A stretch of DNA of 64,000 nt from Kordiimonas sp. SCSIO 12610 (lineage in GTDB: Bacteria > Pseudomonadota > Alphaproteobacteria > Sphingomonadales > Kordiimonadaceae), in the NCBI RefSeq assembly GCF_024398015.1, contig NZ_CP073747.1, positions 1,312,501 through 1,376,500 of the forward strand, given 5' to 3'. Shown here in pieces: positions 37,813 through 43,972 of this stretch. The position numbers and the translations under genes were made by a program. Each line of letters begins with the position of its first letter. Position 1 is the first letter of the stretch. The notes beneath the pieces are model-generated. The model searched no databases and was not told where the DNA came from. It worked only from the letters and a program-made list of their open reading frames with translations.

Positions 37813-37841
37813 ATACAAAGACTTAGCGAAGTTTACAATCG

Positions 37842-37875
37842 GAAGCAGTTCTTTTTCAGGGCTGCTTCTTTTTTT
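37842..37875 (+). terminator. Terminator after purA
   Basis: Stem GAAGCAG / CTGCTTC with a 13-base loop followed by seven T. Confidence 0.85.
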
Positions 37876-37993: not shown

Positions 37994-40021
37994 TTGAGTT
38001 CTGATCTGGCTCCAGCACCAAAGACCAAAAGCAAGTTCGCAGAACGCTACTCTGTGGCAATAAAAGAACCGTTGCCTGAATTTAATACACCGGGCGGTGA
38101 AGCCTATGCTGTTTCAGATAGTGCTAACCCGGACGCAGCAATTTATGCTTTGGTTCATTATCCCTCAGTCCCTGTCCGTGAAGATTTATATAAAGCCTTA
38201 AAAGAGAAACCGATTGCTAATCTGGTTTGCCCAAAAGATCGTGGCCTAATGACATTAGGATTAAAGGGCGGCGATCAGCAGCGATTGGTTACGATTTTTG
38301 AACGTCCGCTCGGTGGCCCGTTGATGACAGAGCAGGGGGCTGTGAATGAAGGAGTAAACCCACTTCATCTCCGGCAAAATATTATCCTTTGTACCCTTAA
38401 GGCAATCGCCGGGCTTCATAAAATAGATCACACCCATCGCTCTATCAGGCCGACTGCGATGTATTTTCTGAAAGCCGATCGTTCAGATATAACGATTGGG
38501 GAATGTTGTAGTTATCCTATCGGTTACAAGCATCATTATGCATTGGATGCTCTTGAAAATTGCTTCACTGATGAAAGAAGTAAACCCAAAGGGGATAAAT
38601 CAAGTGATTTTTTCCAGTTTGGTGCGGCTCTTTTGTGTTTGAATGTAAGGGCAGCAGCGTGGCAGGGCCGTGATGGTGAAAGTTTTATAACCGCGCGGAT
38701 CAACCAAGGTTCCTATTGGGCGCTTGGTGGTGGTCAGGAAATCCCGGGGGCGACCGGTAATTTGGTTAAGGGTTTGATGGCCGATGACCTAAGCGAACGG
38801 TGGGATGCGCAGGATGTGCTGGATTGGTTCGAAGGCGCTGTTAAACCAAAGCGTACGAGCATGAAAGCCTGGTCAATGAACCGGCCAACACGTTTCAATG
38901 GCAAGTCCTATATTGATCGGAGGTTACTCGCGGATGCATTTGCAAACGAACCAGAGGCCGCGCTGAAGTTCTTGCGTGATATGAATTTTGCCACATGGAT
39001 TCAAATGTCGTTTCGTGACGAAGTTTTAAGTGAACGGGCAGAAAAACAGTTAGGGATCAACCCTTCCGAAGGAATGGCTAGTTCACGTAATCACGACCAT
39101 GAAACAATTGCCAGAATATGCATGTTTTTATACCCGCAAGGTCCAATTCGTTATAAAGGATTGGCGGTAAGTGTTGATAACCTTGGTGGGATATTGGCCG
39201 ACGCTTTTGCAAAAGATGATCGTCAAATGCTCACGGTCTTGTCTGAAATTCTTGCACCGCGATTTCTGAATAGTTTGATGGAAACACTGGGTGGAAAAGC
39301 GCCAGAGTTCAATCAACATGTTGCTATGTTGCGTAAGGTTGGTGACATAGCCAAGAGCACACAATTGGCGCAAGGTATGGAGCGTGTTCTTTATGAATTA
39401 AATCCTTCGATGCCTTGTTTGAGTAACCGGTTTGAGAAAAACTGGATTGTGTCCGTAGATCAGGCCGTTAAGGCCTTAGACCGGTTGGCGAGTTCCGGGA
39501 ACGTAGCCAACGTATTAACGGACCGTCATATCGCAGCCTTTATGTCAAAGCATGGAAGCGGTTTAGAGCAAGAATTCAATAAGTTGTCGTCCGCCCAAGG
39601 TAACTCAGCACGGTTTAATACTTTAAGCTTAGATTTTTTCGGCGCGCTTCAAAAACGCTTTAGGATTGGCCCTTTGCCATCCTTGACCGATAAGTTGGTT
39701 AGCGGGTTGATGCCTGCAATCAAGGGTATGAAGAATCAGAAAAACAAGGAACGGCTCAAAAGCCTTTTGGAAAAACTCAAAAAGGGCGGTGATTTATCCA
39801 AGATCAGTTCGGACATTAACATCAGTAAAATGTTGGCAGATGACGCACGAGCATTTGCCAATGCCCGCGGTCTTTTGGCGAAGTTGGAAAAAGATCGGTT
39901 CAGGCTTTCGGGGCGCATATCAGCCAAAGACCCTGAGGCTTTAGAGAAAGGGGTAAAGGGCGCTAGAACGCTGGCATTCATTATATTTACCCTAACAATC
40001 GTGCTGGTTACCATGCAGTAA
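37994..40021 (+). CDS. Tail-anchored protein-kinase-like (probable pseudokinase) protein
   Basis: The family is not one I can name. Translation probably starts at a TTG (37994) preceded by AAAGGG, giving 675 aa; a further TTG at 37943 is less likely. Residues about 25-275 look like a protein-kinase fold: a helix with LKAIAGLHKIDH is followed at about 147 by HRSIRPTAMYF where kinases have HRDxKPxN, so the catalytic Asp is Ser. ITIGEC stands where DFG is expected; a helical lobe SSDFFQFGAALLCL ... LVKGLMADDLSERWDAQDVLDWF matches kinase subdomains IX-XI. Residues 290-640 are mostly helical. A single hydrophobic helix (LAFIIFTLTIVLVTM) ends the protein, implying a cytoplasmic body anchored by its tail. 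The next gene encodes a membrane protein 26 bases away. Confidence 0.65.
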   Translation: MSSDLAPAPKTKSKFAERYSVAIKEPLPEFNTPGGEAYAVSDSANPDAAIYALVHYPSVPVREDLYKALKEKPIANLVCPKDRGLMTLGLKGGDQQRLVTIFERPLGGPLMTEQGAVNEGVNPLHLRQNIILCTLKAIAGLHKIDHTHRSIRPTAMYFLKADRSDITIGECCSYPIGYKHHYALDALENCFTDERSKPKGDKSSDFFQFGAALLCLNVRAAAWQGRDGESFITARINQGSYWALGGGQEIPGATGNLVKGLMADDLSERWDAQDVLDWFEGAVKPKRTSMKAWSMNRPTRFNGKSYIDRRLLADAFANEPEAALKFLRDMNFATWIQMSFRDEVLSERAEKQLGINPSEGMASSRNHDHETIARICMFLYPQGPIRYKGLAVSVDNLGGILADAFAKDDRQMLTVLSEILAPRFLNSLMETLGGKAPEFNQHVAMLRKVGDIAKSTQLAQGMERVLYELNPSMPCLSNRFEKNWIVSVDQAVKALDRLASSGNVANVLTDRHIAAFMSKHGSGLEQEFNKLSSAQGNSARFNTLSLDFFGALQKRFRIGPLPSLTDKLVSGLMPAIKGMKNQKNKERLKSLLEKLKKGGDLSKISSDINISKMLADDARAFANARGLLAKLEKDRFRLSGRISAKDPEALEKGVKGARTLAFIIFTLTIVLVTMQ

Positions 40022-40047
40022 TAAATTTCGGGAAACATTGAAGTTAA

Positions 40048-40503
40048 ATGGCGAAACAAAATACATCATCAAACTTTAAACTTGTCACAATGATCCTGTT
40101 GGGGGCTGGTGGTTTAGCTGTGTTAAGCTGGCAAACAGCCGCTTTTGTTGCAATCGGACTTCTGCCGTCTTTGGTGCTGGTATATACAGGCACAGGTCCG
40201 TGGAAGATGGAGAAATTGCAGTGTGTGTTTCTCTTGAATGCAGCCACGATTATCCCATTTGCGTATGATATTTGGCAGAACCCCAGTAGCTTTAGTTATC
40301 AAATTTCCAATCCAGTTTCTATTGCAGGCATGTATTCTGGCGCAGCCATTGGATATGCATTTATTTTTATGGGGCCTGTGTTCGCCGCCGCAATTCTGCA
40401 AATTCTGGCTAAAGACAAATTAAGGCGTATCAATCAAGGCAGGAAAGCCTTGATTGATGAATGGGGTGATGAATTGACATCACCCGATAAAGCTAAAAAG
40501 TAA
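40048..40503 (+). CDS. Small polytopic membrane protein of unknown function
   Basis: This 151-aa protein has three to four hydrophobic segments: about 9-32 (LVTMILLGAGGLAVLSWQTAAFV), 33-47, 57-70 and 92-120 (YSGAAIGYAFIFMGPVFAAAILQIL), then a charged cytoplasmic tail (KDKLRRINQGRKALIDEWGDELTS). I do not recognise a family. It lies 26 bases after the kinase-like gene on the same strand, so the two are probably one operon and may form a membrane complex; that link is inference from position alone. It converges on rpoH with an 18-base gap. Confidence 0.7.
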   Translation: MAKQNTSSNFKLVTMILLGAGGLAVLSWQTAAFVAIGLLPSLVLVYTGTGPWKMEKLQCVFLLNAATIIPFAYDIWQNPSSFSYQISNPVSIAGMYSGAAIGYAFIFMGPVFAAAILQILAKDKLRRINQGRKALIDEWGDELTSPDKAKK

Positions 40504-41476: not shown

Positions 41477-42469
41477 TTACACCTTATATGGTGTCAGTGT
41501 TTCAACTAGCCCTTTCATATCATATGGTAATTCGCTCTCGAATTTAAAGGGTTTTCCTGAAATTGGATGTATGAAGCCGAGTGTGCGGGCATGCAGGGCT
41601 TGCCTGTCAAACGATTGAATGGCAGCGCGTACAGGTCCTGCAATCGCGCCAGACAGCTTTGCAGTACGGCCATAAACAGGGTCACCAATCAGGGTATGAC
41701 CGATGTGGTTCATATGAACGCGAACCTGATGGGTACGGCCTGTTTCCAACTTGCATTCAATGAGGGACGCAATCGCTTTACCGCCCGCCTGATAATTAGC
41801 AATTGTTCGGTAATGTGTTGCTGCCCATTTCCCGTGCCCATCATAGACAGCCATTTTCTTACGGTCGCTGGAATGACGTGCGATATGGCCTTCGATACGA
41901 TTATTTGCGGGATTAGGATGCCCTTTGCATATAGCGGTATACAGTCGCTCGATTGAGTGGTCGGCAAACTGTTCAGCGAGCCCTGTGTGCGCCTTATCAT
42001 GTTTTGCCATGATAATGATACCGCTGGTATCTTTATCAATCCTGTGAACAATTCCGGGGCGTTTGACACCCCCAATCCCGCTAAGGCTATCGCCGCAGTG
42101 ATGAAGCAGCGCGTTCACAAGCGTACCTGTTGGGCTCCCGGGTGCAGGGTGTACGACCATACCAGCCGGTTTGTTCACAAGAATGATATGCTCGTCCTCA
42201 AAAACTACATCCAAGGGGATATCTTCTGCGACCGGGTCGGGTTCAACGGCATCAGGAATTATGATTTCAATTTGATCACCGGGTTTGACCGTTCGCGATG
42301 GTGTCGGTATGGTGCGCGCACCAGATGATGAAACCAAGGCAACAGCCTGATCGTTAATCAGGTTTTTTAACCTAGACCTGGACATGTCAGGAATATGCTG
42401 CGTCAATAATTTATCAAGACGCACACCTGCCGTGTCTTCGGTAACGATGATGGTATATGTATCGGTCAT
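41477..42469 (-). CDS. rluD: Ribosomal large-subunit pseudouridine synthase, RluD type
   Basis: This enzyme makes pseudouridines in 23S rRNA (positions 1911/1915/1917 in E. coli for RluD). The 330-aa protein has an N-terminal S4 RNA-binding domain (VRLDKLLTQHIPDMSRSRLKNLINDQAVAL) and a catalytic RluA domain with the nucleophilic Asp in GIVHRIDKDTSGIIIMAK and substrate strands ETGRTHQVRVHMNHIGHTLIGDPVYG. The start ATG lies 10 bases from the start of the divergent gene at 42480, so each promoter must sit in the other gene. RluD-type is inferred from length and S4 domain. Confidence 0.9.
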   Translation of the reverse strand: MTDTYTIIVTEDTAGVRLDKLLTQHIPDMSRSRLKNLINDQAVALVSSSGARTIPTPSRTVKPGDQIEIIIPDAVEPDPVAEDIPLDVVFEDEHIILVNKPAGMVVHPAPGSPTGTLVNALLHHCGDSLSGIGGVKRPGIVHRIDKDTSGIIIMAKHDKAHTGLAEQFADHSIERLYTAICKGHPNPANNRIEGHIARHSSDRKKMAVYDGHGKWAATHYRTIANYQAGGKAIASLIECKLETGRTHQVRVHMNHIGHTLIGDPVYGRTAKLSGAIAGPVRAAIQSFDRQALHARTLGFIHPISGKPFKFESELPYDMKGLVETLTPYKV

Positions 42470-42479
42470 GGAGAACCTT

Positions 42480-42932
42480 ATGAGCGTAAATCAGGGAAAT
42501 GTCACCCCCAACAATGATCCAAACGGTCAAAATCCTGCTGACGGTGCAGAAGATAAGCCGCCAGTGTGGTTGATCATTACAGTCGTTGTTTTAGGACTTG
42601 CGATCATTGGTATGCTTGTGGTGATCGTGATGAAGGTTCTGATTGGCGACAAGGGTGATGAGAATATAACAACTGATACTGTGAGTATTTCTGAGAAAAA
42701 AGTAAAAGAACCATCGAAAGAGTTTTTAAGTTTAATTGAAAATTCTTGGCCTGAGTATCTTGAAAAAATTGAAGTTGATCGACCTGTTGGAGGTAAGCTC
42801 GTTGCGTCAACTGTTGATTATCATAGTGTTATACTGACTTTCCAACTTAAAGACGGTAGCGATGTTATCATGATTGTGAACCGTAATGATGGCAGTGTTG
42901 ATACGATATCTATCCCGCTCAATCCTTCATAA
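42480..42932 (+). CDS. Single-pass membrane protein of unknown function
   Basis: This is a 150-aa protein. The ATG at 42480 follows GGAGAA; longer frames reach back into rluD and are rejected. Residues 1-31 are Asn/Pro/Gly-rich and polar, one transmembrane helix spans about 32-56 (VWLIITVVVLGLAIIGMLVVIVMKV), and about 90 residues outside the cytoplasm follow, with two beta-like repeats (KLVASTVDYHSVILTFQLKDGSDVIMIVN, SVDTISIPL). It may belong to a small alphaproteobacterial family found beside rluD (possibly DUF6476), which I recall only loosely. Function unknown. Confidence 0.7.
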   Translation: MSVNQGNVTPNNDPNGQNPADGAEDKPPVWLIITVVVLGLAIIGMLVVIVMKVLIGDKGDENITTDTVSISEKKVKEPSKEFLSLIENSWPEYLEKIEVDRPVGGKLVASTVDYHSVILTFQLKDGSDVIMIVNRNDGSVDTISIPLNPS

Positions 42933-42941
42933 TGCTAACGA

Positions 42942-43367
42942 ATGATAAGGCTTTTAAAAAATCACCTCACAGAGCTAGAAAATAGTGCACTGACTGCCTT
43001 TCCTGAGGAAGCATGTGCTTTGCTCCTAGGAACTTGGGTTGGTGAAAATGCCCAAATCACTCAGGTTTGCCTCAGTGATAATATGAGCGAAGATGATAAA
43101 ACAACATCCTTTGAAATTGATCCTTCGCTTTATATTCGGTTGCAGAAGCAAGCGCGGGCGGGCGGCGCTGAGGTGATCGGCGTTTGGCATTCTCACCCTA
43201 ATGGGATGCCCGCTCCATCTAAAACGGACCATATGCGTTCAATTGAGAAAAACTGGGTGTGGCTTATTACATCGGTCAACGGAGGTAAAGCCCAAACAAA
43301 AGGGTACCTGAGTGGATCAGATACCCCAAATATTTTTCAAGAAATAAGTATTTCAGTCGTTGATTAG
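42942..43367 (+). CDS. JAMM/MPN-domain metallopeptidase (M67 family)
   Basis: This is a stand-alone 141-aa JAMM protein. The zinc site is complete: a Glu in AFPEEACALLLG, the His pair in GVWHSHPNG and the Asp in PSKTDHM, matching E...HxHPx(n)SxxD. Bacterial JAMM proteins process ubiquitin-like sulphur carriers in cysteine or thiamine pathways or act with E1-like proteins, but no such gene is adjacent. It lies 9 bases after the membrane-protein gene and its stop codon overlaps that of the convergent EipA gene. Confidence 0.85.
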   Translation: MIRLLKNHLTELENSALTAFPEEACALLLGTWVGENAQITQVCLSDNMSEDDKTTSFEIDPSLYIRLQKQARAGGAEVIGVWHSHPNGMPAPSKTDHMRSIEKNWVWLITSVNGGKAQTKGYLSGSDTPNIFQEISISVVD

Positions 43368-43972
43368 AATGGCAGATAGCTGGTTTTCTTGGTGAATTTC
43401 AAGTAACCGACGGATGCCTGTGCACGAAGGCCAACACCAACACGGACAATCGCGATTACAACATCCTTCTTGCCGTATACGCTAACCCCGAGGCCACCTA
43501 CGAAATAAAATGATCCTTCAAGCGCGCCGACACGCGTATAGATTTCTTCGGTGTCATAGAGGTTATAAACAAGGGCGAAAGTTTTTACAGCGTCTGCGCC
43601 AGCGTCAAAGCCAATGGATGGACCTGTCCAGTGGATAGGGCGTTGTCCCTCGATCTTATGATACAGGTCACCGCCGCCATAACGAAGGCCAACTATCAAA
43701 CCGCCGCCAGCTTCATTGCCGGTAATGTAGGCATTCGGGCGTCCATAGCTTTTGAAAACGCCTTCAAGCGCCTTTGCAACCACTTCTGCGCCTTTGCCCA
43801 AGTAGCCAGCACCAGCGTCAACAATCGATTCCTCAGAATATGTATTTTCCGGTGTACTGATTCTGGGCTGTGAAGACGATGGTTTGCTTGTTGAGCTTGA
43901 ACTGGAGCACGCAGCCAAAAATGCGATTAAGATAAGAGCAAGAGGTTTTTTAAATCCTGAAAATAGTGCCAC
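43364..43972 (-). CDS. EipA-family (DUF1134) envelope lipoprotein
   Basis: This 202-aa protein is conserved in alphaproteobacteria; its Brucella relative EipA is a periplasmic protein needed for envelope integrity. It starts at GTG after GGGAGAG. A signal peptide ends in a lipobox FLAAC followed by a serine-rich stretch, so this version is a lipoprotein. The DUF1134 core is visible in GRPNAYITGNEAGGGLIVGLRYGGGDLYHK, GPSIGFDAGADAVKTFALVYNL and VGALEGSFYFVGGLGVSVY. The gene name is withheld because only family membership is clear. Confidence 0.85.
   Translation of the reverse strand: MALFSGFKKPLALILIAFLAACSSSSSTSKPSSSQPRISTPENTYSEESIVDAGAGYLGKGAEVVAKALEGVFKSYGRPNAYITGNEAGGGLIVGLRYGGGDLYHKIEGQRPIHWTGPSIGFDAGADAVKTFALVYNLYDTEEIYTRVGALEGSFYFVGGLGVSVYGKKDVVIAIVRVGVGLRAQASVGYLKFTKKTSYLPF

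Follow-up and report, generated by a model that had tools for sequence, protein, structure and literature searches.

Genes at the locus

The window analyzed here is a 64,000-nt stretch of Kordiimonas sp. SCSIO 12610 (NZ_CP073747.1, positions 1,312,501-1,376,500, forward strand), part of a 3.5-Mb genome in a single contig. Two adjacent + strand genes were studied: gene A (37994..40021), which has one copy in this genome and encodes a predicted tail-anchored pseudokinase of 675 aa, and gene B (40048..40503), which encodes a putative small polytopic membrane protein of 151 aa. The original prediction had set the limits of the pair at 37994-40503, with 26 bases between the gene A stop (40021) and the gene B start (40048), and both figures were right. 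Gene A is defined by its open frame, conserved start and relatives, and gene B by its open frame, hydrophobicity and conserved residues. The TTG start of gene A at 37994 is supported because, in an alignment of the upstream regions of 11 loci (the window included), TTG, GTG or ATG precedes AG at one shared position. The closest named relative that we found, an uncultured Kordiimonas (L090), shares 76% identity in A and 79% in B.

The genes 5' of gene A are serC, serA, hisZ and purA, and 3' of gene B, in convergent orientation, lie rpoH and a gene for an RluA-family pseudouridine synthase. Matches of the two nearest neighbors to TIGR00184 (purA, 1.9e-163) and TIGR02392 (rpoH, 4.1e-110) bore out the predicted placement of the pair between them, an arrangement that is common among relatives but does not define the pair. 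With loci cut by contig ends included in the counts, 62 of 80 named loci have purA no more than 3 kb from A, and 55 have rpoH no more than 4 kb from it; the pair is intact at other places in Azospirillum (L128, L147, and L158), and in L193 and L194 it is present as a tandem duplicate. Gene calls at the relatives' loci, which are crude where the DNA is GC-rich, were used for neighbors only. The gap between purA and gene A contains a terminator-like hairpin with a T tail (37841..37869, + strand; 12 pairs), which is weak evidence because such sites showed no excess over shuffled sequence in the overall scan (2 found, 3.2 in shuffles). Given this hairpin after purA, A and B may form a transcription unit of their own. 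The functions of purA and rpoH were considered as a clue from location, but such a link is not supported, since the pair also occurs beside other genes and in tandem, and the link is further weakened by the hairpin that separates purA from A and by the convergent orientation of rpoH.

Past rpoH and the pseudouridine synthase gene, the interval 42384-43367 holds a small gene (182 aa) and then a JAB/desampylase-like gene (NF041370, 1.3e-16, under the cut-off), and these two recur at that place in several related loci. On the - strand, a 202-aa gene (43364-43972) had no NCBIfam match at 1e-5, and its start resembles a lipoprotein signal by eye.

Gene A contains a kinase fold

The AlphaFold2 model of gene A (pLDDT 87.8, pTM 0.83) contains a bilobal domain whose residues 12-282 superimpose on the kinase WNK1 (5w7t) with Z 22.9 and an rmsd of 3.0 over 246 residues; in the sequence, the pseudokinase domain was assigned to residues 14-282 (38033..38839, + strand). 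A family set of 57 A sequences, comprising the window copy and 56 relatives, was then compared with known structures and families. The profile of this set matched the kinases MK2 (6.3e-12) and WNK1 (2.1e-11), and 52 of the 57 sequences matched PF00069 singly at E <= 0.1, the best at 3.6e-11; the window copy had no match in the Pfam search. Residues 12-282 are thus predicted to have a protein-kinase fold, which places gene A in the kinase-fold superfamily, and the reading rests on both the model and the profile. The protein had originally been called kinase-like, and structure prediction, the check proposed for residues 25-275, gave a kinase fold, the opposite of the non-kinase fold that was to count against the idea.

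Through its kinase part, the whole-A profile also picks up many ordinary kinases (157 of 299 genomes sampled across the phylum), and the NCBIfam models LanL (56 of 57 members, best 1.2e-13) and MAD6 (54 of 57, best 1.2e-12), whose matches are far under the cut-offs for the window copy, can be read as generic kinase similarity. The anti-phage defense kinase models of PADLOC (MkoA, mad6, and PD-T4-6) matched 47-48 of the 57 sequences (best 2e-13 and 7.5e-13), and the single MkoA alignment range, that of the window copy (E 0.0036), covers residues 93-288, which is the kinase part. These matches look like generic kinase similarity, and a role in a defense system was set aside on that ground, though not firmly.

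Catalytic residues are lost and the loop Asn is mostly kept

In the window copy, the beta-3 Lys is replaced by Val54, the HRD Asp by Ser, the loop Asn by Ala155, and the DFG Asp by Glu. The degenerate catalytic loop reads HRSIRPTAM (residues 148-156; 38435..38461, + strand), with Ser in place of the HRD aspartate as the original prediction had noted. That prediction also saw no DFG; the canonical motif is indeed gone, but the position itself is present and reads Gly-Glu-Cys (residues 169-171; 38498..38506, + strand). Among the 57 A sequences, none has the beta-3 Lys (the position is Val in 30 and Ile in 20), only 2 have the HRD Asp, and the DFG Asp position is acidic in 52 (Glu in 34, Asp in 18). 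The three residues that together characterize an active Hanks-type kinase (Lys, HRD Asp, and DFG Asp) are combined in none of the 57, and ordinary phosphotransfer by gene A is, on these alignments, very unlikely. A bacterial pseudokinase has been defined as a kinase sequence that lacks one or more of the three catalytic residues (PMC12599244), and by that definition, as given in the available part of the source, the predicted product of gene A is a pseudokinase.

The loop Asn has a different distribution, being present in 50 of the 57 sequences and accompanied by an acidic DFG residue in 47. It is kept in the 76%-identical congener and lost in the window copy. When the count was broken down by family (leaving out the fragment L028), the Asn was kept in 16 of 27 Kordiimonadaceae, lost in the other 11, and kept in all 31 of the remaining sequences of the same alignment. 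Since so many members of the window's own family have lost it, Mg-nucleotide chemistry appears dispensable there, and Mg-nucleotide binding in that family would be optional at best. Mean conservation is higher in the hinge (2.76 bits), catalytic loop (2.85 bits) and DFG stretch (2.81 bits) than in the kinase domain as a whole (2.25 bits), and the C-lobe stretches 239-246 (2.77 bits) and 260-281 (2.71 bits) are about as conserved as the pocket. Between congeners, purifying selection acts on gene A (pN/pS about 0.20, with dS near or at saturation) and on its kinase domain, where dN/dS is about 0.07.

A helical C-domain and a tail anchor follow the kinase domain

The prediction of about 350 further helical residues held for the greater part, as the C-domain (residues 286-646; 38849..39931, + strand) is mostly helical in the model, but it also has two small beta hairpins. 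Modeled alone, the domain had a pLDDT of 86.6. It gave no convincing sequence family match in Pfam or the PDB, and the NCBIfam search covered it as part of whole A. In fold searches, the best Foldseek match had an E of 0.13 and the best VIA-align match a Z of 5.2, a score within what that tool gives as the range of common arrangements, and the modeled C-domain could possibly be a new fold. Two stretches had the highest conservation among those compared: residues 459-477 (39368..39424, + strand), with the motif GxGxERxLYELNPxxPCxS and a mean of 3.34 bits, and residues 508-516 (39515..39541, + strand), which contain DRHxAAF and have a mean of 3.50 bits, the mean for the whole C-domain being 2.04 bits. 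Searched apart from the kinase part, the C-domain profile found 12 of the 299 phylum genomes; 11 of these have a full-length or split A, and the twelfth (G394) is a weak partial match. Full-length or split relatives of A were confined, in this sample, to those 11 genomes, all in the window's own class.

Gene A ends, as predicted, in a single hydrophobic helix. The best 17-mer, residues 659-675 (39968..40018, + strand), has a Kyte-Doolittle mean of 2.14, compared with 1.39 for the top 17-mer between residues 61 and 615, and the model places a helix at residues 647-674. Of 79 complete relatives, 78 retain the segment (L150, at a contig end, was left out), with at most nine residues after the best 17-mer. 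Judged by hydropathy and position, this helix is a tail anchor, and most of gene A presumably lies in the cytoplasm.

Gene B is a small membrane protein

The gene downstream had been described as a small membrane protein, and its hydrophobicity agrees with this: it has three clear hydrophobic segments (around residues 10-28, 30-49, and 99-117), and a fourth, around 57-75, is weaker. Pro40 and Trp139 are invariant in all 78 aligned sequences, and the N-terminus is basic in many relatives. Searches of Pfam and NCBIfam returned only scattered weak matches to B and no convincing family, and the window copy had one chance-level match in Pfam. Like gene A, gene B is under purifying selection between congeners (pN/pS about 0.19, with dS near or at saturation).

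A and B are inherited together

Of 59 near genomes, 46 contain A, and 45 of these also contain B; in the remaining genome (G040), the contig stops 378 bases from the beginning of A, in the direction in which B would be expected. Conservation of the A/B locus goes beyond chance, given relatives in 46 of the 59 near genomes and purifying selection on both genes.

The original prediction had proposed examining the co-occurrence of the two genes across genomes, and had held that absence of the second gene beside most orthologs would count against a two-gene complex. To cover the whole class, we used 289 alphaproteobacterial genomes that were at least 90% complete. A was detected in 100 of these with a single sequence and in 101 with the C-domain profile, and B in 101 with its profile. 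Two weak matches were set aside, a 52-position fragment of B in G061 (E 6.3e-5) and an A match with two stop codons in G162 (E 2.7e-4), after which the genome sets for A and B were identical, 100 and 100 of the 289. The pair is thus present in roughly one third of the alphaproteobacterial genomes sampled. The two genes lie within 1.2 kb of each other in 98 of the 100 genomes, and G243 and G313 hold both genes apart. The named loci agree with this, since a B profile match (using a model built from 47 of the 80 loci) comes directly after A in 78 of the 80; of the two exceptions, L150 ends at a contig edge and L120 has no B in the fetched stretch. The second gene is therefore found beside nearly all orthologs.

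Counted by copy, a B lies no more than 1.2 kb away from 106 of the 115 A matches, and 106 of 115 B matches are near A. The nine A matches without a close B include those of G243 and G313, two that have the appearance of contig-edge cases (G314:C5 and G285:C102), and one (G166:C6) for which a local profile search did find a neighboring B. In G138, G173, G255, and G324, a second A copy has no B match within 1.2 kb, and for three of these four genomes there is also no B in the fetched stretch. Among the nine B matches not near A are the extra copies of G069 and G183, three per genome. Genomes as small as 1.4 Mb (G094 and G262) retain the pair, which points to a core rather than an accessory role. 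A mirror-tree comparison was also considered as support for an A-B link and set aside as uninformative, since the partial correlation of A with B given purA and rpoH (0.54) was no better than that of the control, purA with A given rpoH (0.60).

Relation to described pseudokinases

Bacterial pseudokinases are largely unexplored by experiment, and the families described are ActPs1-3, GLW, CP1, DYD, and DLHK (PMC12599244, a 2025 review). In the part of that review available to us, the motif set of A does not appear in any passage. Like Hanks-type kinases (PF00069), A has a bilobal fold at 12-282, but it differs in its lost catalytic residues, long C-domain, tail anchor, and an obligate-looking membrane partner. 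The GLW family is, of those covered there, the nearest to A by taxon and by its membrane helix. GLW pseudokinases carry GLW where HRD would stand and have a poly-Leu motif at beta-3 (PMC12599244), whereas A reads H-R/G-x-I-R-P-x-N, has Val or Ile instead of the Lys, and so lacks the defining motif. GLW at residues 148-150 was absent from the motif lines of 58 readable A sequences; among the 57 of the family set, position 148 is His in 55 and Cys in 2, position 149 is Arg in 40 and Gly in 14, and Trp is not among the eight commonest letters at position 150.

Two other described proteins resemble A in part. EssB/YukC of type VII secretion is, like A, a membrane-bound pseudokinase, and has a non-catalytic role (PMC12599244). 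It is, however, a secretion-system protein of Firmicutes, whereas A is alphaproteobacterial, has another kind of partner and carries its anchor at the C-terminus. The neighbors of A and B that were listed are housekeeping genes, as judged by eye and from their similarity to genes in the window, and no EssB/YukC domain appeared among the best 50 structural matches of A listed, which were ordinary kinases. The MviN pseudokinase domain (ActPs3) resembles A in being a degenerate kinase domain linked to a membrane protein; it differs in that it is actinobacterial, has a deleted activation loop and lies within a membrane protein needed for peptidoglycan synthesis (PMC12599244).

A literature search found no paper on the A-B pair, and the group may bear a label in the kinase atlas underlying PMC12599244. 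The system appears unstudied, and within the reach of these tools the results support the original view of it as undescribed, with no convincing family for the C-domain or B and no paper found. A strictly co-inherited partner gene offers a direct handle on the role of a dead kinase at the bacterial membrane.

Possible roles of the A-B pair

Building on the anatomy and co-inheritance of A and B seen in sequence and model, we infer a mechanism in which the two genes would form a conserved two-gene membrane module, with the pseudokinase serving as a scaffold or allosteric adaptor that works with B. This reading, which we favor, is probably correct, by a modest measure; it combines a dead kinase lobe for binding and a conserved helical domain with a tail helix and a rarely lost membrane partner. 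Nearly all of A would lie in the cytoplasm, and in the cytoplasmic membrane its tail helix might pack against B. The pseudokinase lobe, being non-catalytic, could serve in binding or allosteric control, its target being a client protein or, in lineages with the loop Asn and the acidic DFG residue, a small ligand. The C-domain motifs GxGxERxLYELNPxxPCxS and DRHxAAF may form the working surface, and the module as a whole would act in a core process of these bacteria as a scaffold or adaptor at the membrane, and not as an active kinase. Counted against the scaffold or adaptor reading are the unpaired A copies (G138, G173, G255, G324, and L120), the extra B copies (G069 and G183), and the mirror-tree result.

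Gene A could also be a sensor that depends on a nucleotide or metal, or an enzyme with unusual chemistry comparable to SelO and SidJ, in which the pocket is kept for a ligand. A kept ligand pocket fits better than a pure scaffold with the 47 of 57 sequences that retain both the Asn and the acidic DFG residue and with the conservation of the hinge, catalytic loop and DFG stretches above the domain mean, and the loop Asn is invariant in the aligned sequences outside Kordiimonadaceae. However, the beta-3 Lys that is missing throughout A is kept in SelO and SidJ, according to the available text of PMC12599244, and the loss of the loop Asn within Kordiimonadaceae and the nearly equal conservation of other C-lobe stretches also speak against such a pocket. 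We regard this sensor or enzyme as possible but rather unlikely. A broader proposal, which we advance as a doubtful one, is an alphaproteobacterial membrane signaling unit in which a non-phosphorylating, kinase-shaped domain senses a ligand or client and the orphan helical domain controls B. If true, it would be a new kind of unit, a pair nearly inseparable across much of the class, and the C-domain would hold its own conserved active or docking site.

A role of the pair in flagella or motility was considered in light of the distribution of FlhA (PF00771), which was matched in 93 of the 100 pair-carrying genomes, against 84 of the 189 that lack the pair (Fisher p 1e-17, uncorrected for shared ancestry). 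The tandem A-B-A-B of L194 (G171) adjoins flhA (G171:C2:123526-125514) and is also near genes resembling, by eye, motA and a flbD-type regulator. This is, however, the one locus with flagellar neighbors among the neighbors listed, the pair occurs without an FlhA match in seven genomes (G105, G106, G123, G153, G161, G220, and G234), two of them rated 100% complete, and in families f56, f95, and f103 it is kept in a member without FlhA. Together with the 84 genomes that have FlhA but no pair, these cases make a flagellar role quite improbable. The weakest alternative, an active kinase with rearranged catalytic residues, to which the kinase fold, the HRD-position Asp of two sequences and the NCBI name of the Azospirillum thermophilum relative (serine/threonine protein kinase, with the neighboring B called a hypothetical protein) might point, was rejected on the motif counts in the 57 sequences and on the absence of all four residues from the window copy, and deserves hardly any weight.

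Divergent and extra copies

Five A copies, of which L187, L188, and L189 are without B and L190 and L191 have B, were unmatched by simple patterns for the C-domain motifs, and these paralogs may have diverged at the motifs, as judged by a strict pattern and not by alignment. The three extra B copies in each of G069 (L184-L186) and G183 (L196-L198), which belong to one genus, stand without A, and one of them, L184, adjoins what appear by eye to be genes for a sensor histidine kinase and a response regulator.
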